From positions 1 to 51,709 of the forward strand of contig CAKZNV010000134.1 in assembly GCA_937132085.1 (NCBI GenBank): 51,709 nucleotides of DNA, written 5' to 3'. A model generated the notes under the pieces. It searched no databases and was not told the DNA's origin. It saw nothing but the letters and a program-made list of their open reading frames with translations. The stretch's first letter is position 1, and the number at the start of each line of letters is the position of its first letter. Positions 11,716 to 30,458 of the stretch are shown here, piece by piece. Origin of the DNA: an uncultured Rubritalea sp. GTDB taxonomy: Bacteria > Verrucomicrobiota > Verrucomicrobiia > Verrucomicrobiales > Akkermansiaceae. A program made the translations under genes and the position numbers.

Positions 11716-12690
11716 TTGAATCATTTCTTTTCCCCCCTCACTATCTCTACAGCATCACATCAGACCCAATCTAACAACAATTTGAAAAACCAACGATCCA
11801 TCGGCAACAGACTAGCCTATTATTTACTACTCATTCTTGAGAAACCCTTCGGACTCATGCCTACATCGTGGATGTGGCGAATTGGAGCCGGACTAGGCGG
11901 ACTAACTTATAAGCTAGCGAAGAAGCGTAGAGCTATTGTTGCTGCTAACTTAAAGATTGTGCACCCTGACTTGAATGAAGCTGAAATCGTTAAACTCACA
12001 AAAGAAGTCTTTCGATATTCATCCGCCAACCTTTTTAGCTCAGTGAACACAGGATTCATCTCCTCTAAGCGCCTCGCTAAAATTGTAGAGATCAAGGGCC
12101 AGGAGAATCTCTCTGGTCTAGATCCAGATAAAGGTTGTATTCTGCTCGGTTTTCACATGGGAAACTGGGAGGTGCTCAGCCGCGTCAGCCCTCTACTAAA
12201 CACGGACAAGCCTATGGGTGCAATGTTTCGGCCGCTCAACAACGCCTTTATCAGCGAACACGTAGAGGCTAGTCGCAAAAAAGAAGGCCTACGCCTTTTC
12301 TCTAGAAAACGTGGACTCATCGAAGCTCATAAATTTCTCCGAGATGGCGGAATGTTAGGAGTTTTAGGAGATCAACATGCTGGCAAAGCAGGCATCAAAC
12401 TCCCCCTCTTCGGTAAAGAAACCTCCATCAGCCCACTACCAGCTATCTTAGCTCAGAAATACGACTGCCCTATCATTCCGATAACACTTACGACTAAATC
12501 CCCAGGCAAATGGATCGCTGACTACCAAAAGCCATTTTATATCTCTAAAGAGCTTAGCAAGCAAGAAGCCACAGCACAGCTAGTCCCGACTCTAGAACGC
12601 ATCATGCTAGACAACTGTAAGGACATCTTTTGGCTACATGATCGTTGGAAAATGAAACAAGAGCTTAAAGCCGCCAAGGCAACAGGCTAA
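11716..12690 (+). CDS. LpxL/HtrB-family lysophospholipid/lipid A acyltransferase
   Basis: 324 residues from a TTG at 11716; a TTG at 11782 is an alternative, and the first ATG would remove the conserved N-terminal membrane-anchoring region. The catalytic HX4E motif is HMGNWE (His147-Glu152), followed by AMFRPLNNAFI, and GGMLGVLGDQHAGKAGIKLPLFGKETS, typical of LpxL/LpxM enzymes that add secondary acyl chains to lipid A from acyl-ACP at the inner membrane. C-terminal FWLHDRWKMK is also family-typical. It opens the plus-strand glycan locus, supporting a Gram-negative cell with lipid A-like glycolipids. The exact acceptor is not known. Confidence 0.88.
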   Translation: MNHFFSPLTISTASHQTQSNNNLKNQRSIGNRLAYYLLLILEKPFGLMPTSWMWRIGAGLGGLTYKLAKKRRAIVAANLKIVHPDLNEAEIVKLTKEVFRYSSANLFSSVNTGFISSKRLAKIVEIKGQENLSGLDPDKGCILLGFHMGNWEVLSRVSPLLNTDKPMGAMFRPLNNAFISEHVEASRKKEGLRLFSRKRGLIEAHKFLRDGGMLGVLGDQHAGKAGIKLPLFGKETSISPLPAILAQKYDCPIIPITLTTKSPGKWIADYQKPFYISKELSKQEATAQLVPTLERIMLDNCKDIFWLHDRWKMKQELKAAKATG

Positions 12691-12739
12691 AATACTCTTG
12701 CAGAAAACAGCCTCAAATTATACTAGTCTAGTAAGAATC

Positions 12740-13465
12740 ATGCTCAAAACTCTACTACCGCGACTTTATTACTCTACTTTTTTCAATAAGAGTTCAATCG
12801 GTCAATTATACATTGTCTCAGAAGACATCGACACCTACTTCTGCTTCAACAACCATAAAGGGTTCTTATTCCCTCAAGCTGACGAGCAATTAACGATCAA
12901 GCTTGATGTTCATTCTAGCTCAGGAAAGAAAATCCTTAGCAAAAATTTCAACCTGAATGCGCATGACTCCCTCTCAGTCTCGATACGAGATCTGCTGAAG
13001 GAAAAGCTAACAATAGGCAAAGAAGAAATTTTAGGTTCGATTGTCTGCACTACGCCAAAGACCACACTCCAAAACCATTTCTATACATACTATCGTGATG
13101 ATAAAACTGAGTCCGTAGCAATGATTCACCCACAGTCTACTGTTGGCAGAAAGACCACTGACAGGAGCTGGATATCGAACCAGATCATTCACACCAAAGA
13201 TCTAGAGAACATCACTCTCTACCAAATGAATCACAGCCGTGGCACTTCTTCTTGTCATTATTACTTACGTTCGGTGGCCGATGGCTCCATCTTCGCAGAA
13301 GCTGATGTCAGCGTAAAACAGCTAGGCGTCACCAAGGTAAAGTTCGATCTAACAGACAGCCCAGCTCAACTCTGCCTGAGCTTAGATAATTTACTATCAC
13401 CCAATGGCAAGCCATTGATCATGCGCAGATACAAAAACAACAAGTTCACAATCAACCATGGGTAA
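12740..13465 (+). CDS. Unknown protein, probable beta-sandwich with two internal repeats (first of a pair)
   Basis: I take ATG 12740 (241 residues); a TTG at 12698 would extend it by 14. There is no signal peptide or membrane segment. Two internal segments share a pattern of hydrophobic strand, small polar turn with Gly, hydrophobic strand, then a short amphipathic end: residues 53-90 (LDVHSSSGKKIL... LSVSIRDLL) and 173-205 (YYLRSVADGSIF... VTKVKFDL). The same pattern is found twice in the next gene, which overlaps it by 8 bp, so the two look like divergent paralogues. I do not recognise a family. Position between a lipid acyltransferase and KpsS-like transferases suggests a role in surface-glycan assembly. 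Confidence 0.7.
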   Translation: MLKTLLPRLYYSTFFNKSSIGQLYIVSEDIDTYFCFNNHKGFLFPQADEQLTIKLDVHSSSGKKILSKNFNLNAHDSLSVSIRDLLKEKLTIGKEEILGSIVCTTPKTTLQNHFYTYYRDDKTESVAMIHPQSTVGRKTTDRSWISNQIIHTKDLENITLYQMNHSRGTSSCHYYLRSVADGSIFAEADVSVKQLGVTKVKFDLTDSPAQLCLSLDNLLSPNGKPLIMRRYKNNKFTINHG

Positions 13466-14339
13466 ATCAATTTCCATCCAAGGTAAAAACATTATCATCT
13501 TTTACTGTTCCAGCCTTAAAACTCTCGGTTTAGAATCTCGTGTTAGTTTACCCAATAAGACGGGTGAGAATACCAATGCCTATGTCCAAGTATTCACGAC
13601 TAGTGGCGAATTCGTCCAAGAGAAGTCACTAGATGAAGTAGCGGATAAATCAATCATCGCCGTTGAGTTAAACGATCTCTACAGAGACTTCCAGCTAGAC
13701 TCTACATTTGACTACGTATTTCTATTCTCACTCATCCCAGCCAACTACACACCGAGTGACTTTCAAGACATCGAACTAGGTGAGGTTTCCAGACTGAATA
13801 GCACGCAAGATTTCTACATCGAGCATTACATAGAAAGCAGCATCTCTGCAGGAGTCCTCTATCAGGCATCCCCTGTCATGAATAATAAAAGTATCATTCC
13901 TCAATTTTACTTTTTCATGCAGGCTCCGAAGATTTTCCTCTCCGAGCACCAGGATACAATTTTCCAGTTCTTTAACCCAAACATCTCCAGAGAGCCTGAG
14001 AACTCCAAGCTCTACTTTTTCATCCGAGAATCCAATGGCGACATTCTCTGCAAAGGAGAACTGAATGTCTCAAGCAATGGAATGTCCATGCTCAGCGTTA
14101 AAGAGACTCTGCAAAACAATAATATCACTCCACCTAACGGCTTTCTACACTTCGAAGCATTTTCTGATGAAGCGATCTTCATCACTCTAACAATGCAATA
14201 TAACAAGAGTCTAGAAACCATGGACTTAGAGCACACATTGTCCCCACACTACTATTTGCAGAAAAATAAAATGGATAAAAAATCCACACATAGTTATTAT
14301 AGCGATCTCTATAACTCTCATGTTAACAAATCCGTTTAA
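13458..14339 (+). CDS. Unknown protein, probable beta-sandwich with two internal repeats (second of a pair)
   Basis: 293 residues from ATG 13458, overlapping the previous gene by 8 bp, so translation is probably coupled. No signal peptide or membrane segment. The repeat pattern is at residues 42-79 (YVQVFTTSGEFV... IIAVELNDLY) and 185-219 (LYFFIRESNGDILCKG... MSMLSVKETL). The second is preceded by a strand DTIFQFFNPN that matches ENITLYQMNHS in the partner. Few Cys, many aromatic residues. Unknown function; may bind a sugar polymer or form a complex with its partner and the adjacent glycosyltransferases. Confidence 0.7.
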   Translation: MGKSISIQGKNIIIFYCSSLKTLGLESRVSLPNKTGENTNAYVQVFTTSGEFVQEKSLDEVADKSIIAVELNDLYRDFQLDSTFDYVFLFSLIPANYTPSDFQDIELGEVSRLNSTQDFYIEHYIESSISAGVLYQASPVMNNKSIIPQFYFFMQAPKIFLSEHQDTIFQFFNPNISREPENSKLYFFIRESNGDILCKGELNVSSNGMSMLSVKETLQNNNITPPNGFLHFEAFSDEAIFITLTMQYNKSLETMDLEHTLSPHYYLQKNKMDKKSTHSYYSDLYNSHVNKSV

Positions 14340-14358
14340 CCATCATCCATAAACAACC

Positions 14359-15735
14359 TTGAAAGCCACAAGTTCACCATTAAGAATTCTTTTCTGCTGG
14401 TTCCATCAGCCGCACCTGCAAAAGGCTGTTTCTGAATTTATCGATGAAAACTCCATTGAGTATATTGGCTTAATGGGGCACTCCAATTATCTAGGTAATA
14501 CAGCGGACACTTTTTTGCATGCTAAGCTAGCACGCAAGAAGTGCCACTTCCCAGATCACGACCACAAATTTGTCCCATCAAGGCAGATCATAGAATCCAT
14601 GCGCAGCACCGAAGCTGAGGTGCTTAAAATGATGGATCGTATCTATAAAAGCCCTTTCAAGCCTCGTCAGTATGAGTTCCGCAAGCGCCTCTACTATTCA
14701 CAACTTTGTATGGCGTATGGCTTCCTCATGGAGCATAAATTCAACCGAGTCATCTTCTCTAACATCCCGCACAACAGCTTTGACTTCATCCTCTTCGGGC
14801 TCTGTAAAGCGATGGGAATAGAAACATCTTTCCTTTATCAGCTACAAGTCAAAGACTGCTTCCTCCACGCTTACACGCTGGAAGAACTCTACGGTCAGCT
14901 CGCCTTACCAGAACAGTATGATGAAGATCGTGAGTGGGAACTACCAGATTTCCTAGAAGAAGAAATTCAAGAACGCCTAGGAACGAAAGCGCCATTCTAC
15001 ATGAATGCGAATCGTTTCCCACTGAAAGCGAAACTTAAAGCACTGCGTAAAAAAGCATTCAGAGTCCAGACTTACACCTATCCCTTCTACACCTTCTCTA
15101 GTTGGTTTGCCTATAAACGTATCCCTAAATACAAACCTACTGCTGATAGTAAGTTCGTTTACTTTGCGCTGCACATGCAACCAGAAGCGACCACATCTCC
15201 AATGGGTGGCGTCTTTGTAGATCAGTATTACGTGATCCTCATGATCGCCAGAGCTCTACCCGAAGGCGTCAAAGTAGTCGTAAAAGAACACCCACATCAA
15301 GAAATGTGGCAACGCACACCTGATTTTTATAACATCCTGAAGGCTGAGCCAAATGTGGAATTCGTCTCGCTGAAGCAGAACAGCTTTGAACTCATCAAGC
15401 AATCCATCGCAGTCGCCACCATCACTGGCACCGTAGGCTGGGAAGCTCTTTTCTTGAAGAAGCCAGTCATCCTGTTTGGCCATATTTTCTACAAGCACCT
15501 TCCAGGAGTCATCAATGTCAACGACACTGAATCTCTCGCTGATGCCATGGCGCAAATCCAGAGTGGTGACTACAAACTCTGTGAGCTTTCAGACATCCGC
15601 AAGCTACTCCACTACACCAATGAGAAAGCTTATCACGGTGCTGTGGATAACGACTATTTCGAGATCTCTCACCTCTCAGCTGAAGAAAATAAAAATTCAG
15701 TCAAGCAAGCTCTAACAGATTTCATCATTCACTAA
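14359..15735 (+). CDS. KpsS-like capsule-type glycosyltransferase, copy 1
   Basis: 458 residues from TTG 14359, 19 bp after the previous stop; no ATG fits without losing the N-terminal beta strand RILFCWF. C-terminal features match capsule polysaccharide synthesis (KpsS/LipB-like) GT-B enzymes: LHMQPEATTSPMGG at 271-284, VKEHPHQ near 309-314 and TITGTVGWEAL, where the nucleotide sugar would sit. These families use CMP-activated ulosonic acids (for example Kdo). KpsS-type genes accompany pseudaminic acid genes in Acinetobacter capsule loci, so a CMP-pseudaminic acid donor is a reasonable inference here. It is paralogous along its whole length with the next gene. No membrane helix is seen. Confidence 0.82.
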   Translation: MKATSSPLRILFCWFHQPHLQKAVSEFIDENSIEYIGLMGHSNYLGNTADTFLHAKLARKKCHFPDHDHKFVPSRQIIESMRSTEAEVLKMMDRIYKSPFKPRQYEFRKRLYYSQLCMAYGFLMEHKFNRVIFSNIPHNSFDFILFGLCKAMGIETSFLYQLQVKDCFLHAYTLEELYGQLALPEQYDEDREWELPDFLEEEIQERLGTKAPFYMNANRFPLKAKLKALRKKAFRVQTYTYPFYTFSSWFAYKRIPKYKPTADSKFVYFALHMQPEATTSPMGGVFVDQYYVILMIARALPEGVKVVVKEHPHQEMWQRTPDFYNILKAEPNVEFVSLKQNSFELIKQSIAVATITGTVGWEALFLKKPVILFGHIFYKHLPGVINVNDTESLADAMAQIQSGDYKLCELSDIRKLLHYTNEKAYHGAVDNDYFEISHLSAEENKNSVKQALTDFIIH

Positions 15736-15736
15736 T

Positions 15737-17107
15737 ATGGCTGCGAAACACATCACCAAAAAAATCTTATTCTGTGGGTTTTGGCAAAGCCATCACAAGC
15801 TAGCACTGATGCAGCATTTAGATAAATTCAGCTACGATAGAGTCGGCCTAGTGAGCCACGATAACTATCTTGAGCAACACGACGCCGTCTTCATCTCTCA
15901 GCGAGAAATCTATAAGCACGATACATTTCTAGGCAATCCAGATCCAGATCTCCCCTCTAGAGAGATCATCGAGAAGATGCAGCCAATTGAGACGACCTGT
16001 CTCAAGATGATGGACAGAAACCATAAGAGCCCTATCAAATACCGTCGCTATGAATTCCGCAAACGCACCTATTTAGCTCAGCTAGCCAGTGCCTACGCTA
16101 TTCTCAAGCACTACCAGTTTGACCAGATCCTATTCTCCATCACTCCCCACAACACCTTTGATTACATCATTCATCACCTCGCTCAGCACTTAGGAATTAA
16201 ATCCTCATTTTTTGCTCAGATTCAGGTCAAAGATTCCTTTTTCCATGCAGATGACATTGAGAACATCTACGGTCAGATAAATGACACCGTGGATTATGAG
16301 AGCACCGAATGCGAGCTACCTGAGCACCTAGAAACAGAGCTTTCAGATAGACAAGGCCTCACCAAGCCTTTCTACATGAACTCCGCTGGACTCACGTGGA
16401 AACAGCGTCTCTACAGAAAGCAGAAGCAGATCTTTAGAATCCATAGTTACATTCAGCCTCTGTTCGCTGTTCCTAACTGGCTCTCCTATCAGAAGATATC
16501 TAAACTCACTGCTCCGCCGAAAAATAACTACATCTACTTCGCTCTGCATTTTCAACCAGAAGCGACGACTTGTCCGCTAGGTGGCATTTATGTAGATCAA
16601 TATTTCGCCATCCTCATGCTAGCTCGTTCGCTTCCTGATGACATTGACGTCATCGTGAAAGAGCACCCAAGACAACACTTTTGGCAGCGATTTCCAGAAT
16701 TCTACAAAGTGCTAGCTGCTGAGAAAAATGTGAAGTTTGCCCATATCAAAACCGATTCACTAGAACTCACTAACAATTCCCTAGCAGTAGCGACCATTAC
16801 CGGAACTGTCGGTTGGGAAGCGGTATTCAAGAAAAAGCCAGTCTTCCTCTTCGGAACCATTTTCTACGAAAATCTCCCTGGTATCGTGAAAGTCTCTGAC
16901 CAAGAATCTATCTCATCAGCTATCGAAGATATTCTAGCGGACAAATTCAAAACAGCAACCGACCTAGAAATCCGCCAGTATCTTAAAGCAATTGACGAAT
17001 CTGGCTACACTGGCGTCATCGATGAAGAATACTTCCGCAACTCCGCCTTTTCCAAAGAACACAGCATCGAAGTAATGGTCGATGCTATTGAGAAATTCAC
17101 CACCTGA
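15737..17107 (+). CDS. KpsS-like capsule-type glycosyltransferase, copy 2
   Basis: 456 residues, ATG one base after the previous stop. Same architecture as copy 1: shared KILFCGFWQS start, YEFRKRTYLAQL, QIQVKDSFFHAD, LHFQPEATTCPLGG, VKEHPRQHFWQRFPEFY and TITGTVGWEAVF. The pair therefore arose by tandem duplication and diverged, which suggests either two different acceptors or alternating linkages in one polymer. The operon seems to pause here: the next gene starts 63 bp on, after an AT-rich stretch with a seven-T run but no convincing stem. Confidence 0.82.
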   Translation: MAAKHITKKILFCGFWQSHHKLALMQHLDKFSYDRVGLVSHDNYLEQHDAVFISQREIYKHDTFLGNPDPDLPSREIIEKMQPIETTCLKMMDRNHKSPIKYRRYEFRKRTYLAQLASAYAILKHYQFDQILFSITPHNTFDYIIHHLAQHLGIKSSFFAQIQVKDSFFHADDIENIYGQINDTVDYESTECELPEHLETELSDRQGLTKPFYMNSAGLTWKQRLYRKQKQIFRIHSYIQPLFAVPNWLSYQKISKLTAPPKNNYIYFALHFQPEATTCPLGGIYVDQYFAILMLARSLPDDIDVIVKEHPRQHFWQRFPEFYKVLAAEKNVKFAHIKTDSLELTNNSLAVATITGTVGWEAVFKKKPVFLFGTIFYENLPGIVKVSDQESISSAIEDILADKFKTATDLEIRQYLKAIDESGYTGVIDEEYFRNSAFSKEHSIEVMVDAIEKFTT

Positions 17108-17170: not shown

Positions 17171-18322
17171 ATGATTTCCTACTGCACAAACTGCTTACTA
17201 CCTGACACAAAACCCGATCTTAGCTTTAATGAAGAGGGTGTGTGTAATGCATGCACTAATTTCGCAAACCGTAAAGAAGTCAACTGGGATGAGCGTCTCG
17301 TAGAGCTAGACGAAGTGCTAGACCGCTATCGTAACAAAGACGGTTCATACTGGGACTGCGTTGTTCCAGTAAGTGGAGGTAAAGACTCTACATTCCAAGT
17401 CATCAAGATGCTCGAACTAGGAATGACTCCCCTCTGTGTAACAGCTCACACTTGTGACCTCGCAGAAATCGGCAGAGCCAATATCGAAAACATCAAGTCA
17501 CTCGGTGTTGATTTACTAGAATTCTCACCAAACCCAAATGTCAGAGCGAAACTCAACAACATCGGCTTAAAGCAAGTCGGAGACATTGCATGGCCGGAAC
17601 ACGTAGGAATCTTCACGATCCCTGTCCGCGTAGCTACTCAGTATAAAATCCCGCTTATCGTGTGGGGCGAAAATTCACAAAACGAATACGGTGGCCCAGC
17701 AGCCAATGCGAACTCAAATTCTCTAGACCGCAGATGGTTAGAAGAATTCGGCGGACTACTAGGACTACGTGTGAGCGATTTAGAAGGTGTAGATGACATC
17801 AAACAAAAAGACCTCATTCCTTACATCTACCCTACTGATGAAGAACTTAAAGAAGCTAAAGTCACTGGACTTTTCCTCGGTCACTACATTCCTTGGGATG
17901 GTTACTCAAATGCTCTCCTAGCACAGGCATACGGCTTCCAGACACTTCCTCACACAGCGGAAGGATCTATCGTAAACTACGAGAACCTAGACAACCACCA
18001 ACACGGAATTCACGATTACTTCAAGTTCCTCAAGTTTGGCTTTGCCAGAGCGACTGACATCGCATCACTTCACATCAGAAGAGGACGTATCACTCGTGCG
18101 CAAGGTCTTGATCTCGTCAAGAGACACGATGGCAAGTTCCCACTCAGCTACCTCGGTAAGCCACTCGACCAGATCCTGGAAAAGATCGATATGACTGTCG
18201 AGGAGTTCACTAAAATTTGTGATAAGTTCACTAACAAAAAGATCTTCCAAAAAGACGCTCGTGGCAACTTATGTAAAGACCACAAGGGCAACCTCAGCAA
18301 AATCAACGACGACAACGACTAA
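17171..18322 (+). CDS. pseA: N-acetyl sugar amidotransferase (PseA/WbpG family)
   Basis: 383 residues. Two CxxC pairs (Cys5/Cys8 and Cys25/Cys28) form the N-terminal zinc site, and SGGKDS at 68-73 is the PP-loop that adenylates the N-acetyl group; later VIWGENSQNEYGGP is typical of the family (TIGR03573). WbpG of Pseudomonas and PseA of Campylobacter convert an acetamido to an acetamidino group, using ammonia from HisH/HisF-like partners in the WbpG case. Those two partners follow directly (the hisH-like ATG overlaps this stop by 1 bp), and the pseudaminic acid genes come next. The symbol is by analogy; the substrate (Pse5Ac7Ac or its precursor) is inferred. Confidence 0.88.
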   Translation: MISYCTNCLLPDTKPDLSFNEEGVCNACTNFANRKEVNWDERLVELDEVLDRYRNKDGSYWDCVVPVSGGKDSTFQVIKMLELGMTPLCVTAHTCDLAEIGRANIENIKSLGVDLLEFSPNPNVRAKLNNIGLKQVGDIAWPEHVGIFTIPVRVATQYKIPLIVWGENSQNEYGGPAANANSNSLDRRWLEEFGGLLGLRVSDLEGVDDIKQKDLIPYIYPTDEELKEAKVTGLFLGHYIPWDGYSNALLAQAYGFQTLPHTAEGSIVNYENLDNHQHGIHDYFKFLKFGFARATDIASLHIRRGRITRAQGLDLVKRHDGKFPLSYLGKPLDQILEKIDMTVEEFTKICDKFTNKKIFQKDARGNLCKDHKGNLSKINDDND

Positions 18323-18939
18323 TGAGTATCATGATCATAGATTACGGAATGGGTAACCTCACTTCCGTCCAGAGAGCACTCGAAGAAGCAGGTGCAGCTT
18401 GTTTCATATCGGATTTACCACATGATATCAAAGAAGCTAGTTCCATTGTTCTACCTGGTGTAGGCGCCTTTAAAGAAGGCATGGCAAATCTAAGATCATC
18501 AGGAATGGCGGATGCGATTCTAGAAGCAGCAAAAGACAATGTCCCTATCTTAGGCATCTGTCTAGGCATGCAACTGCTCGCTACAAATGGCGACGAAGGT
18601 GGTGGAGAATCTGGCTTAAATCTAATCCCTGGAACTATCCGTGAAATGAAGGCGCAGCCTGGTGAACGCATCCCACACATTGGCTGGAACGAAATCAACC
18701 AATGCGGAGAGCATCCGATGTATGAAGGCATTAAGGATCTGACTGATTTCTACTTCGTCCATAGCTTCCACTTTGATAATACTGGCGATCATACTGTCAC
18801 CAAGACTCCATATGCAGGCGGATTTAGTTCATCCGTAGCTCATGGCAATATCTGGGGCACTCAGTTTCACCCAGAGAAAAGCTCTAAAGCTGGACTCAAG
18901 CTGTTAGAAAACTTCATCAACATCCCATTCACCGTATAG
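18322..18939 (+). CDS. HisH-like glutamine amidotransferase subunit (amidino-sugar synthesis)
   Basis: 205 residues, class I glutaminase. Catalytic triad visible: Cys80 in GICLGMQLL, His183 and Glu185 in QFHPEKS; the oxyanion strand is PGVGAFKEGM. It hydrolyses glutamine and passes ammonia to a HisF-like barrel. In histidine synthesis the partner makes IGP, but here the neighbours are a sugar amidotransferase and a catalytically altered HisF, so it probably feeds sugar amidination (HisH2-type). Start overlaps the upstream stop as TAATG. No other his gene is in the window. Confidence 0.9.
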   Translation: MSIMIIDYGMGNLTSVQRALEEAGAACFISDLPHDIKEASSIVLPGVGAFKEGMANLRSSGMADAILEAAKDNVPILGICLGMQLLATNGDEGGGESGLNLIPGTIREMKAQPGERIPHIGWNEINQCGEHPMYEGIKDLTDFYFVHSFHFDNTGDHTVTKTPYAGGFSSSVAHGNIWGTQFHPEKSSKAGLKLLENFINIPFTV

Positions 18940-18943
18940 AGCC

Positions 18944-19708
18944 ATGTTAAAAACTCGTGTAATCCCCACTCTCCTCTGGAAACGTCCAGGTCTAGTCAAA
19001 GGTATCGGCTTCGACAGTTGGCGAAGAGTTGGCACAGTGCTGCCAGCCATTAAAGTTTATAACATGCGTGACGTCGATGAGCTGATTCTCGTGGACATCA
19101 ATGCCTACTCAGAAGGCATTGAGCCTGACTACGAAGAGATCGCTGAATTCACTCAAGAAAGCTTCGTCCCTATGACTGTAGGTGGTGGAGTCACGGAAGT
19201 AGATCACTTCAAAAAACTACTCCGAGTAGGTGCTGACAAAGTCGCTCTGAACTCCGTCATCTACGATAAACCGCAGCTCATCTCTGAAGCAGCGAACCGC
19301 TTCGGCAAACAATGTGTAGTCGCCAGTGTAGATTACACCAAAAACAGTAGCGGGATTTACCAATGCTGTAGTCACTCAGGCAGTAAACTCAAAGACCACC
19401 ACCCTGTCGAATGGGCCAAAGAACTAGAAGCTCTCGGAGCTGGAGAAATTTTACTCACCTCAGTAGATAAAGATGGAACAATGGAAGGATATGATTACGA
19501 TCTTACCAAACAAGTCACAGAAGCTGTATCAATTCCAGTAATCGCCTCCGGTGGTGCGGGAAGCTACGAACACATGGCAAAAGTGGTCAATGACTCAGGA
19601 GCTGCCGCAGTTGCCGCTGCCAGTATTTTCCACTTCACCGAACAAACACCTCTAAAGGCCAAAGAACACATGGCTCAACAGGGAATCCCTGTCAGACTCT
19701 TAAAATAA
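18944..19708 (+). CDS. HisF-like barrel lacking Asp11 (amidino-sugar synthesis)
   Basis: 254 residues, (beta/alpha)8 barrel with all HisF landmarks: DELILVDINAY, PMTVGGGV, ASVDYTKN, GAGEILLTSVDKDGTMEGYD, PVIASGGAGS. The N-terminal strand reads RVIPTLLWKRPGLVKG, so the position of catalytic Asp11 of HisF is Leu11, while Asp130 is kept exactly in register. Loss of Asp11 should disable the histidine cyclase reaction while leaving the ammonia channel. This is the pattern I expect for HisF2-type proteins that serve WbpG/PseA. It follows the hisH-like gene by 4 bp. Confidence 0.9.
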   Translation: MLKTRVIPTLLWKRPGLVKGIGFDSWRRVGTVLPAIKVYNMRDVDELILVDINAYSEGIEPDYEEIAEFTQESFVPMTVGGGVTEVDHFKKLLRVGADKVALNSVIYDKPQLISEAANRFGKQCVVASVDYTKNSSGIYQCCSHSGSKLKDHHPVEWAKELEALGAGEILLTSVDKDGTMEGYDYDLTKQVTEAVSIPVIASGGAGSYEHMAKVVNDSGAAAVAAASIFHFTEQTPLKAKEHMAQQGIPVRLLK

Positions 19709-19729
19709 TCACAAACTCAAATAAAATTT

Positions 19730-20728
19730 ATGCTTAACGGAAAATCAATACTCATCACTGGCGGAACTGGTTCACTAGGAAAAGAACTCACTAAAACTAT
19801 TCTCGCTAAATGGCCAGAAGTATCTCGCTTAGTCATCTTCTCACGTGATGAACAAAAGCAATTTGTCATGGCTCAGGAATACCCTGCTGACAAGTATCCA
19901 CAGATCCGCTTCTTCATCGGAGACGTGCGTGACATCGACCGTATGAACAGAGCGTTCCAAGGCATCGACGTCGTCATTCATGCTGCGGCGATGAAGCACG
20001 TTCACATCGCAGAATACAATCCAGATGAGTGTGTAAAAACTAACATCGATGGTGCTCAAAATGTCATCAAGGCGAGCCTCAACTGTGGAGTCCAAGATGT
20101 AGTAGCTCTCTCCACAGACAAAGCCTGTGCACCGATCAACCTCTACGGAGCTACTAAGCTAGCTTCAGACAAGCTCTTCGTAGCAGCGAATAACATCAGA
20201 GGTAACCAAGACATCAAGTTCTCAGTAGTCCGCTACGGAAATGTCATGGGATCAAACGGTTCAGTGATTCCTTTCTTCATGAAGAAAAAAGAAACTGGCG
20301 TCCTTCCTATCACAGATGAGAAAATGACTCGTTTCAATATCTCACTAGCTGACGGAGTTAAGATGGTTCTGCATGCGATCGATCATGCTTGGGGTGGAGA
20401 AATCTTTGTCCCTAAAATACCTTCCTACCGCATCACTGAGCTAGCTCAAGCTGTAGGTCCAGATTGTGAACATCCAGTCATTGGAATTCGCCCAGGTGAA
20501 AAAATCCATGAAGAGATGATCACAGCTTCCGACTCATTCACTACTTACGATCTCGGAACTTATTATGCTATCATTCCACAAACACCAATGTGGGATCTTG
20601 AGAAATTCAAAGCACACTTTAATGCTGAGATCGTTCCTCGTGGGTTCAACTACACGTCAGGTGACAACGAAGACTTCCTCTCAGTAAGCCAGCTCGAAGA
20701 GTTGATCGCCACTCACGTAGCAGAATAA
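19730..20728 (+). CDS. pseB: UDP-GlcNAc 4,6-dehydratase (inverting), PseB
   Basis: 332 residues, extended SDR. NADP site GGTGSLG at 11-17; catalytic Asp130, Lys131 and Tyr139 in the block STDKACAPINLYGATK characteristic of PseB/FlaA1. It converts UDP-GlcNAc to the 4-keto-6-deoxy-L-arabino (idose-configured) sugar, the first step of pseudaminic acid synthesis. FVVRYGNVMGSNGSVIPFF-type segment and the GVLPITDEKMTRF motif also match the family. It starts 21 bp after the hisF-like gene and is followed by pseC after 14 bp. Confidence 0.95.
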   Translation: MLNGKSILITGGTGSLGKELTKTILAKWPEVSRLVIFSRDEQKQFVMAQEYPADKYPQIRFFIGDVRDIDRMNRAFQGIDVVIHAAAMKHVHIAEYNPDECVKTNIDGAQNVIKASLNCGVQDVVALSTDKACAPINLYGATKLASDKLFVAANNIRGNQDIKFSVVRYGNVMGSNGSVIPFFMKKKETGVLPITDEKMTRFNISLADGVKMVLHAIDHAWGGEIFVPKIPSYRITELAQAVGPDCEHPVIGIRPGEKIHEEMITASDSFTTYDLGTYYAIIPQTPMWDLEKFKAHFNAEIVPRGFNYTSGDNEDFLSVSQLEELIATHVAE

Positions 20729-20742
20729 TTTATTAACAAATT

Positions 20743-21948
20743 ATGTCTCAAGAACCATTCATTCCATACGGCAAACAGAATATCTCAGATGATGATATTG
20801 CAGCCGTAGTCTCAGCCTTAAAATCAGACTATCTGACCTGTGGTCCCCGTGTGGATGAATTTGAGAATAAGTTTGCTCAATTTGTAGGCGCCAAGCATGC
20901 AATCGTAGTTTGTAACGCTACAGCAGCCCTCGATCTAACGATGAGAGCTGCCGGACTCGGTCCAGGTGATCGAGTCATCACCTCCCCTAACACCTTTCTC
21001 TCCTCAGCGAATTGCGCTGCCTTCGTAGGAGCCACACCAGATTTCTGCGACATCGACCCTGCCACTTATAATTTGTGCGCAGATTCTTTAGAGAAGATGT
21101 GGACTGATGATATCAAAGCTGTCGTCGCTGTTTCCTTTGCTGGACAGTCATGCGACATGCCGCGTATTCACGAAATAGCGAATAGCCGTGGAGCTGTCGT
21201 TATCGAAGATGCTAGTCACGGAACTGGCGGAGGATTTGAAATCGATGGCACAGCCTATAAACAAGGTGGCCATCCATGGGCAGACATGACAGTCTTCTCA
21301 TTTCACCCAGTGAAAACTCTCACTACTGGTGAAGGCGGAATCGTCATCACTGATAATGATCAATACGCAAAAAGCCTGAGACAGCTCAGAACACACGGCA
21401 TGACTCGTGACGCTGAGGAATTTCAAGGCCTAGGATCAGATGCTCCAGCACTGGCTGAGAAAGGTCCATGGTATTACGAGATGACTGAGCTTGGTCATAA
21501 CTTCCGCATCACCGATATCCAGTGTGCACTAGGTCTAAGCCAGCTCGCACGACTCGATCAGATCACTCAGAGACGTAGAGATATCGTAGCCAAGTATAAC
21601 GCTGCATTTGCTGGTCTTGATTTCCTAGAAACACCTAAGACACTCAGACCACAGGATGCTAACCACGTATCATGGCATCTCTATTCAGTGCAAATCGACT
21701 TCGAAAAACTCAGTAAGTCACGCACAGCAGTAATGGGTGAACTAAGAGGTAAAAACGTCGGTTCACAAGTTCTCTATATCCCTGTTTACTTACAGCCATA
21801 CTATAGAAACACCTACGGTTACGCTGCTGGAAAATGCCCAAATTCAGAGACCTATTACTCTAAAGCTCTCAGTTTACCACTCTTCCCGAGCATGACCGAC
21901 GCAGACGTTCAGAGAGTCATAGAAGCAGTCAAAAACTTAAACCAATAA
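20743..21948 (+). CDS. pseC: UDP-4-amino-4,6-dideoxy-L-AltNAc transaminase, PseC
   Basis: 401 residues, DegT/DnrJ/EryC1 aminotransferase. The PLP lysine is Lys191 in FSFHPVKTLTTGEGG, the hallmark of PseC, with EDASHGTGG and the substrate loop GHNFRITDIQCALG. It transfers an amino group from glutamate to C4 of the PseB product. Typical opening FIPYGKQNISDDDI. It lies between pseB and the cytidylyltransferase gene with short spacers (14 and 8 bp). Confidence 0.95.
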   Translation: MSQEPFIPYGKQNISDDDIAAVVSALKSDYLTCGPRVDEFENKFAQFVGAKHAIVVCNATAALDLTMRAAGLGPGDRVITSPNTFLSSANCAAFVGATPDFCDIDPATYNLCADSLEKMWTDDIKAVVAVSFAGQSCDMPRIHEIANSRGAVVIEDASHGTGGGFEIDGTAYKQGGHPWADMTVFSFHPVKTLTTGEGGIVITDNDQYAKSLRQLRTHGMTRDAEEFQGLGSDAPALAEKGPWYYEMTELGHNFRITDIQCALGLSQLARLDQITQRRRDIVAKYNAAFAGLDFLETPKTLRPQDANHVSWHLYSVQIDFEKLSKSRTAVMGELRGKNVGSQVLYIPVYLQPYYRNTYGYAAGKCPNSETYYSKALSLPLFPSMTDADVQRVIEAVKNLNQ

Positions 21949-21956
21949 ATCACCCT

Positions 21957-22685
21957 ATGCCTTCAGTAACAGCAATCATGCAAGCTCGCTTGGGCAGCAC
22001 TAGACTCCCAGGCAAGGTGCTTATGGAGGTAAATGGTAAAACATTTCTAGAGCATGCATTTCAGAGACTACAGCTTGCTGAGTCTATAGACACAGCAGTG
22101 ATTGCCACGACTACTGAACCAGCTGATGAAGCCATTGCTAGCTTTTGTGAGAGCAAAGGCTGGGCTCACAACCGAGGTTCTGAGGCAGATGTGTTAGATA
22201 GATACTATCAGACCGCTTGCCTATTTCCCGCTGACATCATTGTCAGGGTCACCTCAGATTGCCCACTTCTAGATCCTACGATCATCGATGAAGTCGTGAA
22301 CGCAGTTAAAGCTGATGTCCCAAATACGTCCTACGCCGCAAACGTCTTAGTCCCTAGACATTTTCCTCGTGGTCTAGATGTAGAAGCCTTTACATTTTCT
22401 GCTCTAGAGAAGGCTTGGACAGAGGCCTCTGAGATATCGGATCGTGAGCATGTGACTCCATTTATCAATACTCAGCCAAACATCTTCCCACAAAAAAGCA
22501 TCTCCTACCCAACAGACCTATCACGTCACCGTTGGACACTGGACACGAGCGAAGACCACGAGTTACTGTATAAAATTCTAGATGCTAAGCCAGCTCCAAC
22601 AAGCTGGCTAGACATCCTAGAACTAGTAGAAAGTAACGCTGGTTGGGAAACGATCAACGCAGCCGTCGAGCAAAAGAAAATCTAA
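21957..22685 (+). CDS. SpsF-type cytidylyltransferase (probable CMP-pseudaminic acid synthetase)
   Basis: 242 residues. The nucleotide-binding opening MQARLGSTRLPGKVL and later VTSDCPLLDPTIID and RWTLDTSEDHELL place it in the SpsF family (COG1861), not the NeuA-type family of Campylobacter PseF. Bacillus spore-coat sps loci combine SpsC, SpsE, SpsF and SpsG homologues in a comparable way. From position it is the only CTP-dependent activating enzyme in the cluster, so it should make CMP-Pse. No CMP-sugar synthetase of the usual kind is in the window. Confidence 0.82.
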   Translation: MPSVTAIMQARLGSTRLPGKVLMEVNGKTFLEHAFQRLQLAESIDTAVIATTTEPADEAIASFCESKGWAHNRGSEADVLDRYYQTACLFPADIIVRVTSDCPLLDPTIIDEVVNAVKADVPNTSYAANVLVPRHFPRGLDVEAFTFSALEKAWTEASEISDREHVTPFINTQPNIFPQKSISYPTDLSRHRWTLDTSEDHELLYKILDAKPAPTSWLDILELVESNAGWETINAAVEQKKI

Positions 22686-22686
22686 T

Positions 22687-24177
22687 ATGAACGGCCCAAT
22701 TCTAGCGATTCGTGCTGACGCCTCACACCAAGGTGGAACTGGCCATATCATGCGCACACTAGCAATCGCACAAGAATGGATCAGTCGAGGAGGAAACTGC
22801 ACCTACATCTGCGCCACACTCCCAGACGCTATACGCCAGCGCCTAGAAACTGAAAATTGTAGCATTCATATGCTAAAAAACGCTCCAGCGACAGCGGAGG
22901 AGATTAAAGAGACTTCAGCTGTTCTGGAAGAGCTTAAACCTCGTTGGTTACTCATTGATGGCTACTTATTCACTCCGGCCTATCAAGAAGCTTTAGAGCT
23001 TCCTAACCGAACTAAATTAGCCGTTGTATCTGATTACGGCTGCCAAGACTTCCACGATCCAGACTTAGTCATTCACTCTAACATCGAAGCAGTAGCTGAC
23101 TACACCGAAGCTTCTGACAAAGCGACTATCTTGACAGGCGCTGACTATATCCTGCTTAGAAAAGAAATTCTAAACACACAGACAAAGCCAACTACTCCCA
23201 CGGCGAAGAACCTACTCATCACCATGGGTGGATCTGACCCACAGGAAGCAAGTTTTCTAGTCTGCCAAGAAATCCTCAAACTCAGAGACTCTGAGAATCT
23301 CAATATCAAAGTCATTTTAGGCGCAGCCTATCCAGCCAATGGGAAAATGCATTCCATCAATGCATCAAACCTAGAGCTAGTATGCTCTCCCCCGTCCATG
23401 GGAGACATCTACGAGTGGGCTGACACTGCGATTAGTTCACCCAGCACCACCGCTCTAGAATTGGCATACTGTGGCCTGCCTATTGGCCTAATCATCACAG
23501 CAGACAATCAAGAGAAAATCTTGAGTGCTATGATCGATAAGAACCTAGCATTTCAACTATCTGACGCCAGAGGTGAAGAAGCTACATTCAACTACCTCAA
23601 TGATCTACTAAACTCAGAGATGCGTCTCGAAACATCTAGGAGATCTTCTGAACTCATCGACGGCAAAGGCACCAAACGCATTTGTGATGAGATGAATCTA
23701 CCTACCATCAGTCTCAGATCAGGCACACTAGAAGATGCAAAAGCACTCCATGACTGGACCAATGATCCAGCAACACGTGCTGCATCATTTAGCTCAGATC
23801 CTATCCCATGGGAGGGTCATTTAAAATGGTATAAGGCACAGCTTAACTCCACAGAAGTCACCCTCCTCATCATAGAATCTTGCTCTAACAAACTAGGAGT
23901 AGTAAGATTTAATAAGAACGTAGAAGCCGACGGAGAATCAGTTATATCGATCAGCCTTGCCCCCGAATGCCGTAGTTTAGGCCTCGCTCCACTTATTCTT
24001 CGTAAAGCGGCTGACTATTTCTTTGAAATCTATCCTCAACAAGCTATCACAGCATGGATAAAGCCAGAGAACATCGCTTCAGTAAAAACCTTCATTCGAG
24101 CAAATTACTCAGATTATCCTTCACCTCAGCAGCCTGACAAGGTCAGAATGCGTCTAACAAACACACCGTCATCATGA
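22687..24177 (+). CDS. PseG-PseH fusion: UDP-sugar hydrolase plus GNAT N-acetyltransferase
   Basis: 496 residues. Residues 1-330 are PseG, a GT-B-like UDP-2,4-diacetamido-2,4,6-trideoxy-altropyranose hydrolase: AIRADASHQGGTGHIMRTLAIA with catalytic His20, NLLITMGGSDPQ, and ISSPSTTALELAYCGLP. Residues ~335-496 are a GNAT domain (ISLRSGTLEDAKALHDWTND, acetyl-CoA loop SLAPECRSLGLAPLILR), matching PseH, which N-acetylates C4. Fusion explains why no separate pseH gene exists. It starts 1 bp after the spsF-type gene and its TGA overlaps pseI (ATGA). Confidence 0.9.
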   Translation: MNGPILAIRADASHQGGTGHIMRTLAIAQEWISRGGNCTYICATLPDAIRQRLETENCSIHMLKNAPATAEEIKETSAVLEELKPRWLLIDGYLFTPAYQEALELPNRTKLAVVSDYGCQDFHDPDLVIHSNIEAVADYTEASDKATILTGADYILLRKEILNTQTKPTTPTAKNLLITMGGSDPQEASFLVCQEILKLRDSENLNIKVILGAAYPANGKMHSINASNLELVCSPPSMGDIYEWADTAISSPSTTALELAYCGLPIGLIITADNQEKILSAMIDKNLAFQLSDARGEEATFNYLNDLLNSEMRLETSRRSSELIDGKGTKRICDEMNLPTISLRSGTLEDAKALHDWTNDPATRAASFSSDPIPWEGHLKWYKAQLNSTEVTLLIIESCSNKLGVVRFNKNVEADGESVISISLAPECRSLGLAPLILRKAADYFFEIYPQQAITAWIKPENIASVKTFIRANYSDYPSPQQPDKVRMRLTNTPSS

Positions 24178-25223
24178 ACACATTTGAAATCGCTGGTAGA
24201 AAAATCGGCCCAGGTCAACCATGCTACATCATCGCTGAACTGTCAGCCAACCATGGCCAAAACATCGACAACGCTCTCGCTCTCGTAAAGGTAGCCAAAG
24301 ACGCTGGAGCAGATGCCATCAAGCTTCAGACCTACCGTGCAGACACCATCACGATCGATTGTGACAACGAATACTTCACCATCAAAAAAGGCACAGCCTG
24401 GGAAGGCCAAAGACTATACGATCTCTACGAAGAAGCTCACACTCCATGGGAATGGCATCAAGCAATCTTTGACGAAGCTACCAAATACGGACTCCAATGT
24501 TTCTCATCACCATTCGATGACACCGCTGTAGATTTCTTAGAAAGCATCAATGCGCCAGCCTACAAGATTGCATCCTTTGAGATCGTCGATCATGGACTCA
24601 TCGCAAAAGTCGCTCAGACAGGGAAACCAATGATTATGTCTACCGGCATGGCTTCAAAAGAAGAAGTGGCAGAAGCAGTCCAAGTAGCTCGTGACAATGG
24701 CTGCACCCAGCTAGCTCTCCTCAAATGCGTCAGCGCCTACCCTGCTCCGGCAGACGAAATGCACCTTTCGACTATTCAAGATCTCAGCCAAAGCTTCGAT
24801 TGCCCAGCCGGTCTCTCAGACCACACGCTCGGTATCACTATCCCAGTAGCAGCAGCTAGCATTGGTGCTACTATCATCGAGAAACACTTCACCCTCAGAA
24901 GATCCGACGGTGGCCCAGACTCACACTTCTCACTAGAACCACATGAGTTCAATGAAATGGTGACAGCCGTTAGAGATGCTCAGTCAGCAGTGAGCACTCC
25001 ATCCTATGATCTTACTAAATCACAAGTAGCCTCTCGTATGTTCCGTCGCTCACTCTTCGTAGTAAAAGACATCAAGGCTGGCGAAAAGCTAACAGCAGAA
25101 AATGTCCGCTCAATTCGCCCAGGCCACGGCCTCGCACCAAAGCACTTAAACGATGTCCTCACTAAGACAGCAGTCAACGACATCCTACGAGGAACTCCTC
25201 TAAACTGGGATCTGATTAATTAG
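24174..25223 (+). CDS. pseI: Pseudaminic acid synthase, PseI
   Basis: 349 residues, NeuB-family aldolase-like barrel plus C-terminal SAF (antifreeze-like) domain (about 290-349, SLFVVKDIKAGEKLTAENVRSIRPGHGL). It condenses the freed 6-deoxy-AltdiNAc with PEP to give pseudaminic acid. Family landmarks are IAELSANHGQ, DAIKLQTYRADTITID, YKIASFEIVDHGLI (PseI-type rather than sialate synthase), GLSDHTLG and EKHFTLRRSDGGPDSHFSLEP. Overlaps the pseG-pseH stop by 4 bp; its end overlaps the convergent rmlA end by 8 bp. Confidence 0.95.
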   Translation: MNTFEIAGRKIGPGQPCYIIAELSANHGQNIDNALALVKVAKDAGADAIKLQTYRADTITIDCDNEYFTIKKGTAWEGQRLYDLYEEAHTPWEWHQAIFDEATKYGLQCFSSPFDDTAVDFLESINAPAYKIASFEIVDHGLIAKVAQTGKPMIMSTGMASKEEVAEAVQVARDNGCTQLALLKCVSAYPAPADEMHLSTIQDLSQSFDCPAGLSDHTLGITIPVAAASIGATIIEKHFTLRRSDGGPDSHFSLEPHEFNEMVTAVRDAQSAVSTPSYDLTKSQVASRMFRRSLFVVKDIKAGEKLTAENVRSIRPGHGLAPKHLNDVLTKTAVNDILRGTPLNWDLIN

Positions 25224-28865: not shown

Positions 28866-29902
28866 GTCTAGACGCATCCATCTCCGAAACTGAACTCATC
28901 CTAGGCAACTCTAATAAACGGTTCTCTGGTGTCACGTCCACCATGCTGCAAGCACTCCCCTATCAGCAAAAGATCATGCCCCTAGCAGTCCTCGGTAAGC
29001 ACCACCTACCAGCGGATGTCCCTCACCTCAGTTTTAGAGAGCTCCTCAAGCTCTGTAAATCTCCCCTACCCAGCGGCAAAACTCGTGTCTTTCATGCTCG
29101 TAGAAACGACGAAATGATTCAGGCTCTCATCGCTAAAAAACTCTTTGGGGCAAAACTAAAGGTAGTCTTCACCTCCACCGCTCAGCGACACCACTCACGC
29201 TTCACCAGATGGCTCATGAGTAAAATGGATGCCATCATCACCACCTGCTCAGCAGCTGCATTCTATCTTAAAAAGCCAGCCGACATCGTTATCCCACACG
29301 GCATCGACATCTCCACCTTCACTCCGTCATCAGCTCCCAAGGAGACTTTACGCATCGGAGTATTCGGACGCATCCGCCCCTCTAAAGGCATCGACCTCCT
29401 GATTGACGCTGCCCTTCCTGTTCTAAAAGATTTCCCTAATGCAAAACTTCTAGTCTGTGGCGAAACCACACCAAAATTTCAGCCATACCTTAACGAACAA
29501 AAGCAAAAGATCAAAGACGCTGGAGTCAGTGACCAAGTTGAGTTCCTTGGCAAAGTAGAATTCAACACACTCCCCGGCCTTTATCGGTCAATGAGTGTAG
29601 TCTGCGCCGTTAGTCGTAATGAAGGCTTCGGCCTCACTCCACTAGAAGCAATGGCATCAGGTGTTCCTGTCCTCACTTCTGAAGCAGGAGCATGGAAAGA
29701 CATCGTAGAAAATGGAGTCCACGGCTACTGTGTCCCTACAGGCGATTCACCAGCCATCGAAGAAAAACTCCGCCTCATGCTCAGCAACCCTGACAAACTA
29801 ACAGAGATGGGTGCAGCAGGCAGAACTCATGTAGAAAAACACTACACCAACCAACGCGAAGCCCAGCAACTCTGTGAGTTCTTCAAACAATTGAATGAGT
29901 AA
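28862..29902 (+). CDS. GT4-type glycosyltransferase (second of a pair)
   Basis: 346 residues. Typical GT4 features: IPHGIDISTFTP, FGRIRPSKGIDLLIDA, the EX7E motif in NEGFGLTPLEAMASGVPVLTSEAG, and NGVHGYCVPTGD near the C-terminus. Such enzymes retain the anomeric configuration and use nucleotide sugars such as UDP- or GDP-linked donors; members elsewhere work on lipopolysaccharide cores. It overlaps the previous gene by 4 bp and the kinase gene by 8 bp. Confidence 0.92.
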   Translation: MSLDASISETELILGNSNKRFSGVTSTMLQALPYQQKIMPLAVLGKHHLPADVPHLSFRELLKLCKSPLPSGKTRVFHARRNDEMIQALIAKKLFGAKLKVVFTSTAQRHHSRFTRWLMSKMDAIITTCSAAAFYLKKPADIVIPHGIDISTFTPSSAPKETLRIGVFGRIRPSKGIDLLIDAALPVLKDFPNAKLLVCGETTPKFQPYLNEQKQKIKDAGVSDQVEFLGKVEFNTLPGLYRSMSVVCAVSRNEGFGLTPLEAMASGVPVLTSEAGAWKDIVENGVHGYCVPTGDSPAIEEKLRLMLSNPDKLTEMGAAGRTHVEKHYTNQREAQQLCEFFKQLNE

Positions 29903-30458
29903 AAATCAACAACCTACCTTATTGCTAATTACCGGTCCAAACGGAGCGGGTAAAACCACGTTTGCGGCTGAAATTCTTACTAAAGAACTAAAAGGCTATC
30001 GCTTTCTCAATGCAGACGAAATAGCAAGAGGGCTTTCTCCATTTGACCCAGTATCCGTTGCGTTTAAAGCAGGAAGAACTTTGATAAATGAAGCTAATGA
30101 ACTTATTGAAAAGAGAGAAAACTTTGCTCTAGAATCCACTATTAGCGGCATTGGACACAGTCGCCTCATAAAAAGAGCTAAAGAGAATGGATACAACATA
30201 GTCCTACATTTCCTATGGCTCCCCCACCCATCTGAATCTATCAGACGAGTCAGACAACGAGTAAAAAAAGGTGGCCATCATGTCCCAAGTGTAGACATTC
30301 ATCGCAGATATCCCCGAACATTCTATAATTTAGTAGCTTACTACCTACCACTATCTGATCAATGGGCTATATGGAACGCTACATCGCCTAAATTTATCCC
30401 CTTGGCTAACAACGACACCCATGCTATACATGATATAGCAGAACACCTAAAAGTCTGA
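29895..30458 (+). CDS. Zeta-toxin-type P-loop kinase
   Basis: 187 residues, P-loop protein with Walker A GPNGAGKTTF at residues 14-23, NADEIARGLSPFDP and LESTISG (the zeta-toxin substrate region) and HPSESIRRVRQRVKKGGHHVP. Similar proteins (COG4185) are annotated as zeta toxins or UDP-N-acetylglucosamine kinases. It overlaps the GT4 gene by 8 bp and its stop overlaps a 59-residue gene (TGATG). UDP-GlcNAc is the starting substrate of PseB in the same locus, but a link is only inferred. Confidence 0.85.
   Translation: MSKNQQPTLLLITGPNGAGKTTFAAEILTKELKGYRFLNADEIARGLSPFDPVSVAFKAGRTLINEANELIEKRENFALESTISGIGHSRLIKRAKENGYNIVLHFLWLPHPSESIRRVRQRVKKGGHHVPSVDIHRRYPRTFYNLVAYYLPLSDQWAIWNATSPKFIPLANNDTHAIHDIAEHLKV

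Follow-up and report, generated by a model that had tools for sequence, protein, structure and literature searches.

The window analysed here is the whole of a contig of 51,709 nucleotides (CAKZNV010000134.1, C134 in our numbering) from an uncultured marine Rubritalea sp. of the Verrucomicrobiota (assembly GCA_937132085.1). The genome comprises 4,456,563 bases in 254 contigs, with a completeness of 98.71 and a contamination of 2.58. Eight collinear + strand open reading frames (ORFs), all open, fill positions 17171-25223 and associate a putative three-part sugar amidotransferase (PseA, HisH and HisF) with predicted genes for the biosynthesis of pseudaminic acid (Pse), a sugar akin to sialic acid. 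They are preceded by two genes for PF05159 proteins, called GT1 and GT2 below, which are candidates for transfer of the sugar from its cytidine monophosphate (CMP) form.

14359..15735, + strand: PF05159 protein GT1, candidate CMP-pseudaminate transferase (PF05159 37 bits, cut-off 20)
15737..17107, + strand: PF05159 protein GT2, candidate CMP-pseudaminate transferase (PF05159 38.5 bits; AlphaFold model)
17171..18322, + strand: pseA, WbuX-family N-acetyl-sugar amidotransferase (WbuX TIGR03573 336.5 bits, cut-off 203.2)
18322..18939, + strand: hisH-like glutaminase subunit (HisH TIGR01855 222.7 bits, cut-off 105.4)
18944..19708, + strand: hisF-like subunit of the WbuZ/HisF2/AglZ type, presumed ammonia channel (best model WbuZ TIGR03572, 280.9 bits)
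19730..20728, + strand: pseB, inverting UDP-GlcNAc 4,6-dehydratase (TIGR03589 500 bits, cut-off 407.75)
20743..21948, + strand: pseC, aminotransferase (TIGR03588 450.6 bits, cut-off 423.5)
21957..22685, + strand: spsF-type cytidylyltransferase, candidate CMP-pseudaminate synthetase in place of PseF (CTP_transf_3 PF02348 100.7 bits)
22687..24177, + strand: pseG fused to a GNAT domain, pseH-like (PseG TIGR03590 165.6 bits, cut-off 153.55; PF13302 45.5 bits)
24174..25223, + strand: pseI, pseudaminic acid synthase (TIGR03586 506.6 bits, cut-off 340.25)

The spacers between the eight cluster ORFs are, in order, -1, 4, 21, 14, 8, 1 and -4 bp, in line with an earlier note on this DNA that had given the same gene order with spacers of at most 21 bp. 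Family scans also agree with its reading of the eight gene families, and the source genome is Rubritalea-like. Promoter and terminator scans of the window gave numbers at about chance level (15 promoters against a shuffle mean of 20.4; 14 terminators against 12.4) and no transcription start or stop is therefore claimed for the cluster.

PseB, PseC, PseG and PseI each exceed the curated cut-offs of Pse-specific models. PseI scores 304.2 bits against the NeuB model, below its cut-off of 399.65, and its best match among solved chains is a pseudaminic acid synthase (8h2c, E 1.2e-91). PF02348 matches three places in the genome. From their translations, the two besides the SpsF-type gene read as KdsB-like and IspD-like and, by elimination, the SpsF-type enzyme is the candidate CMP-Pse synthetase. 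SpsF-like cytidylyltransferases have been proposed in nonulosonic acid pathways of B. subtilis and of a Vibrio Pse cluster (excerpts of PMC7439481 and PMC7371886). The Vibrio cluster resembles that of the window in its SpsF-like enzyme, found there in place of NeuA, but the Vibrio protein is bifunctional and carries an aldo-keto reductase domain, while the product associated with B. subtilis SpsF is legionaminic acid.

The amidotransferase triad precedes these genes. HisH2/HisF2 and WbuZ are the partner proteins in the WbpG and WbuX systems. Conservation was followed in homologous loci, defined as the best 80 of 240 confirmed PseA relatives in GTDB genomes together with at most 10 kb of flanking DNA. 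Aligned rows were taken from L001-L081, second copies included, within length limits of 300-450 (PseA), 150-260 (HisH) and 200-330 amino acids (HisF). The cluster PseA matches the solved chain 8wex_A (phmmer, E 1.2e-46) and has a tetracysteine set (C5/C8/C25/C28) and a PP-loop SGGKDS at residues 68-73. The four cysteines are kept in 87/87 PseA rows, as is SGGKDS except at Lys71 (Lys in 82 of 87, Val in the other five). HisH carries Cys80/His183/Glu185; the Cys is conserved in 81/81 rows and the His and Glu each in 80 of 81, the remaining row being gapped. The retention of these motifs makes it plausible that a glutaminase, an ammonia channel and an ATP-using synthetase are all active. Tetracysteine and SGGXDS motifs are described for LpNASAT (8WEX) in excerpts of PMC10607449, a paper in which HisH and HisF go unmentioned. 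PseA shares family and motifs with WbpG, WbuX and LpNASAT, the sequence comparison resting on 8WEX; WbpG and WbuX differ in their sugar substrates, since they make the acetamidino groups of ManNAc3NAmA and of FucNAm respectively (PMC10607449, excerpts).

The HisF-like subunit differs from a histidine enzyme at one position. Asp11 of Thermotoga maritima HisF, which we take to be a catalytic residue of the cyclase in that numbering, aligns with Leu in the cluster copy and with Asp in the histidine HisF of the same genome. Leu occupies this position in 81/81 HisF rows of the homologous loci, while Asp130 is kept in all 81; in HisF rows of the stretches from a phylum survey (L119-L143, see below), each of these two states is found in 15 of 18. 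A second hisF lies on contig C133 (PF00977 283.8 bits, against 201.4 for the cluster copy) and a second hisH on contig C152, directly 3' of a gene whose translation reads as hisB. Because the cyclase Asp is absent and histidine hisF and hisH genes sit elsewhere, the three proteins probably serve as a dedicated sugar amidotransferase with ammonia delivery, in which the HisF copy is unlikely to have retained histidine chemistry. Looking for Leu in place of Asp is a simple sequence criterion that might distinguish sugar-amidating HisF copies from histidine enzymes.

The homologous loci were selected by likeness to the cluster PseA (66-98% identical), which biases them, and many are metagenome-assembled genomes (MAGs), possibly mis-binned. 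Their labels cover 17 phylum-level names, which range from Pseudomonadota and Bacillota to a MAG of Lokiarchaeota; none of the loci is named as C. jejuni. Closest to the window among those fetched is L002, also from an uncultured Rubritalea sp. (PseA 98% identical). Neighbour matches below 50 bits were dropped and synthase counts require at least 60 bits. Both HisH and HisF are close to PseA in 76/80 loci, and pseA-hisH-hisF are strictly adjacent on the same strand in 71. Strict adjacency fails in L003, L005, L011, L015, L018, L045, L053, L074 and L076, of which L005, L011, L045, L053 and L076 have hisH and hisF near pseA but spaced. A PseI-like match was found in 65/80 loci, and 7 of the 15 without one are contigs shorter than 10 kb. 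All but three of the 65 synthases (L013, L033 and L034) are at least 45% identical to the cluster PseI. PseB, PseC and PseI occur together in 43/80 loci and an SpsF match in 30. Among the 54 loci with a PseG match, 32 have PseG ORFs of at least 430 amino acids, a fusion length by the length criterion alone.

The earlier note had considered a triad combined with a Pse pathway to be notable. This is not supported because the arrangement is usual among the best 80 loci (71 with an adjacent triad, 62 with a Pse-type synthase) and is present in C. jejuni. The neighbourhood that it proposed to search for, pseA-hisH-hisF-pseB, holds as far as the triad: PseB is the next recognised gene after it (same strand, within 3 kb) in 4/80 loci only (L002, L026, L049 and L064). 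By these counts each trait of the window is ordinary with the exception of the exact gene order, and the cluster is a well-made but ordinary case of a known, widespread arrangement, to which the PF05159 neighbours are a modest extra. It adds a Verrucomicrobiota example of putative acetamidino-nonulosonic acid biosynthesis and shows the spread of pseA-hisH-hisF with pse genes.

Two variants were seen among these loci. In the Akkermansiaceae MAG locus L003 (1240-3869), pseA (85% identical) and hisH are followed directly by a different SpsF-type gene, and no hisF match is present on its 4.5 kb contig; this is possibly a two-part version of the amidotransferase. L036, L056, L057, L063 and L066 each contain a second, divergent WbuX-family gene (27-31% identical), 8-9 kb away from the PseA-type gene and accompanied by HisH and HisF matches of its own, which suggests two separately amidated sugars per cluster. 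Plasmid records gave 16 PseA matches of 22.4-38.1% identity, 13 of them with 'N-acetyl sugar amidotransferase' among their annotated names, and a phage search with PseA gave zero matches.

Two of the closest known systems are flagellar. Excerpts of PMC12102941 give consecutive C. jejuni locus tags for PseA (Cj1316c), HisH (Cj1315c), HisF (Cj1314c) and PseH (Cj1313) and, according to excerpts of PMC7099621 (citing Guerry 2006), C. jejuni PseA adds the Am (acetamidino) group to Pse5Ac7Ac, PseD and PseE transferring the two Pse forms. By tags and descriptions, this flagellin glycosylation locus therefore resembles the cluster in its PseA, HisH and HisF next to PseH. It differs in its flagellar target, its PseD/PseE pair and its PseF, whereas the genome studied here gave no flagellin or Maf match and has SpsF instead. 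In Clostridium drakei (L041), two flagellin-family genes and a PF01973 gene are followed by a group that includes PseA, HisH, HisF, an SpsF-type enzyme, PseI, PseB, PseG and GNAT genes. PseA is 70% identical and the other members are also those of the cluster; the flagellin-family/PF01973 flank and the separate PseG and GNAT genes are not. Genes for Pse5Ac7Am have been predicted in a C. drakei flagellar variable region (PMC13317340, excerpts), which in all likelihood is L041.

Within the phylum of the source genome, a sample of 288 genomes was surveyed. The WbuX model exceeds its cut-off in 23 genomes, the PseI model in 27 and both in 14 (Fisher p 4.8e-11, computed over related and hence non-independent genomes), so that their co-occurrence in the phylum exceeds chance. 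The 28 WbuX places over the cut-off consist of the window itself and 27 within 25 stretches (L119-L143), among which the PseA of L127 and L128 are identical to those of L053 and L054. In 11/27, some stretches being short contigs, PseI has a WbuX-family gene at a distance of about 10 kb or less: G000, G048, G056, G213, G197, G181, G254, G038, G225, G147 (whose WbuX is below the cut-off) and G162. WbuX of the roughly 70% identical type is found only in G000, G048 and G056; that of G213 is 44% identical and those of the other seven are 28-34%. In a tree of 112 amidotransferases of 300-520 amino acids, the window PseA falls in a group of 83 rows supported at 99 by the Shimodaira-Hasegawa-like approximate likelihood ratio test (SH-aLRT). 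Besides the window, the group contains 64 rows with a Pse-type neighbour, 3 with another synthase and 15 with none seen. Since 13 of the other 29 rows also lie beside Pse-type synthases, association with Pse is not exclusive to this group. In L126 (8637-11259 onward) and L132 (8155-10689 onward), two WbuX-family genes flank a single HisH-HisF pair, an arrangement in which two amidotransferases might share one source of ammonia.

Taken together, the operon is likely to make an acetamidino pseudaminic acid, judging from its gene content. The product would most likely be Pse5Ac7Am or its 5-Am isomer, carried on a surface glycan. The best reading therefore remains the amidinated pseudaminic acid of the earlier note, through the Pse models, the PseA and HisH motifs and the separate histidine pathway, although 7-Am and 5-Am forms are not distinguished. 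Flagellin PF00669 has zero matches in the genome (4.46 Mb, completeness 98.71) and matched 4/14 control genomes; Maf-type PF01973 likewise has zero matches in the genome and matched 4/14 controls, all archaea. With 129.7 bits, the PF01973 model also picks up the gene that adjoins the flagellins of C. drakei and is therefore able to detect Maf-type proteins. The absence of both families points to a non-flagellar surface glycan, in keeping with the target that the earlier note had proposed.

In the proposed route, UDP-GlcNAc would be converted to pseudaminic acid by PseB, PseC, the PseH-like GNAT domain, PseG and PseI, and the SpsF-type enzyme would activate it with CTP. HisH would hydrolyse glutamine, and the HisF-like barrel would relay the ammonia without histidine chemistry to PseA, which, with ATP, its PP-loop and zinc, would put it into an N-acetyl group of the sugar to give the acetamidino group, with nitrogen replacing one oxygen. 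GT1 and GT2 would probably then hand the sugar to a surface polysaccharide or lipopolysaccharide (LPS). The order of the reactions, the amidine position, the roles of SpsF and of the transferases, and the acceptor are all presumptive in this scheme.

Several results weigh against the production of an acetamidino pseudaminic acid. The earlier note had called the Pse pathway complete, which holds for PseB, PseC, PseG and PseI; the fused GNAT domain scores 34.9 bits to PseH, below the cut-off of 93.1, and in family scans the cytidylyltransferase matches no PseF model, with KdsB models far below their cut-offs. The HisF-like protein is itself below the curated cut-offs of WbuZ TIGR03572 (280.9/299.7), NF038364 (266.2/310) and hisF (246.5/294.55). 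With the PseH-like and HisF-like parts below cut-off, neither the acyl group nor the amidation site is fixed. Divergent WbuX genes in other genomes (24-36% identical) adjoin synthases only 31-35% identical to the cluster PseI, or none, so that the substrate cannot be deduced from membership of the WbuX family alone. Mapped on the tree, the label for a Pse-type neighbour clusters only weakly, with 26 changes where shuffled labels average 29.9 and 22 of 500 shuffles are as low.

Four alternatives were weighed. The amidine might sit on N5 instead of N7; Pse5Am7Gra of T. forsythia is such a case. Both forms exist (PMC6120980 and PMC6388019 for T. forsythia, PMC7099621 for C. jejuni Pse5Ac7Am; excerpts) and the computed results do not fix the position, but a 7-Am product is predicted for C. 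drakei, whose PseA is 70% identical (PMC13317340, excerpts), and we consider the N5 variant rather unlikely. The fused GNAT domain might use another acyl donor, which would give Pse with a different N-acyl group and a variant substrate for PseA. This would accord with its low PseH score, with a search of solved structures that returned weak matches (an uncharacterized protein at best, E 0.013; PseH at E 0.9), and with its being the part of the cluster least conserved relative to L002 (44%, where PseI is 92%). An acetamidino group nevertheless requires that one of the two nitrogens first bear an acetyl group, and fusion-length PseG ORFs recur in the homologous loci, where the GNAT part is judged by length alone; a different acyl group is thus an unlikely outcome.

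The amidotransferase might also modify a different sugar of the surface polymer that carries Pse, with Pse itself diacetamido. WbpG and WbuX do amidinate O-antigen sugars (PMC10607449, excerpts) and divergent WbuX genes of the phylum are often apart from Pse-type synthases. On the other hand, in family scans the eight genes from pseA to pseI include none for another amino-sugar route, and, among the 65 loci (PseA 66-98% identical) that have a synthase match, the synthase is of the Pse type in 62, which makes a second sugar quite improbable. That HisH and HisF are ordinary histidine enzymes found in the operon by chance is highly improbable: the separate hisF and hisH of the genome, the Leu at the cyclase Asp11 position in 81/81 rows and the recurrence of the adjacent triad all argue against it, even though the cluster HisH is above the histidine HisH cut-off and outscores the other hisH of the genome (222.2 against 201 bits). 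A C. coli paper does read Cj1315c and Cj1314c as histidine biosynthesis genes (PMC12102941, excerpts). These may well serve PseA rather than the histidine route, and at least one genome paper seems to confuse sugar-amidating HisF with histidine enzymes.

GT1 and GT2 are candidates for the transfer of the sugar to a surface glycan. These tandem proteins end 63 bp upstream of pseA, are 45% identical to each other and are the only PF05159 places in the genome. GT1-like or GT2-like matches occur in six PseA loci besides L002 (L026, L035, L038, L049, L059 and L065). The AlphaFold model of GT2 was built from 12 aligned sequences (predicted local distance difference test, pLDDT, 79.7; predicted template-modelling score, pTM, 0.78). 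In VIA-align it matches KpsC 6mgd_A (Z 14.1, root-mean-square deviation 4.8, 255 aligned) and WbbB 8csf_A (Z 13.3, deviation 6.0, 295 aligned). The top 12 rows are all KpsC/WbbB (Z 12.6-14.1), followed by the trehalose synthase TreT (11.9) and a first epimerase (11.8); Z differences below 1 are ties, so that only the upper KpsC/WbbB rows clearly lead. Against the KpsC/WbbB assignment, Foldseek places UDP-GlcNAc 2-epimerases first and WbbB from rank 9, with query TM-scores of 0.20-0.36 in the 50 rows shown. A role of GT2 as a UDP-GlcNAc 2-epimerase was set aside in view of the VIA-align lead of KpsC/WbbB and the PF05159 match. According to the model, GT2 fits the KpsC/WbbB transferases of 3-deoxy-D-manno-octulosonic acid (Kdo) from CMP-Kdo best. 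It resembles these beta-Kdo transferases in fold over most of the model and in its PF05159 match, and differs in its low structural-alignment identity (9-14%) and in the donor, CMP-Kdo there and presumably CMP-Pse for GT2.

GT1 and GT2 would accordingly be Pse transferases acting on LPS or a capsule-like polymer, and represent candidate pseudaminic acid transferases outside flagella. The T. forsythia Pse transferases were the first with experimental proof according to a 2019 review (PMC6388019, excerpts). GT1 weakly matches the NCBIfam BFO_1060 family glycosyltransferase (E 5.7e-5, 22.4 bits against a cut-off of 200); no text equating this family with T. forsythia GtfS was found in the literature excerpts, and the link is not claimed. 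A bolder reading, unlikely as a whole, is that GT1 and GT2 belong to a scarcely described kind of CMP-pseudaminate transferase with a KpsC/WbbB fold, one for the amidinated and one for the plain sugar, which would give non-flagellate Verrucomicrobiota a surface polymer of Pse whose amidines are positively charged. If so, GT1 and GT2 would in effect do for a polysaccharide what PseD and PseE do for flagella. Slightly upstream, at 11716-12690, is a gene of the lipid A acyltransferase family; contigs C49 and C203 carry polysaccharide flippase and Wzy/ligase families.

Just 5' of GT1, two ORFs of 255 and 293 amino acids (12698-14339) have no Pfam match and, among the 80 loci, a relative in L002 alone. 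Downstream of the cluster, a Zeta-toxin-family kinase (PF06414, 44.1 bits; 29895-30458) has a glycosyltransferase pair on one side and an APH-family gene on the other. Two very large ORFs (34134-37760 and 38907-42362) share a prepilin-like N-terminus, as read from their translations, and each is accompanied just downstream by a smaller ORF on the same strand.

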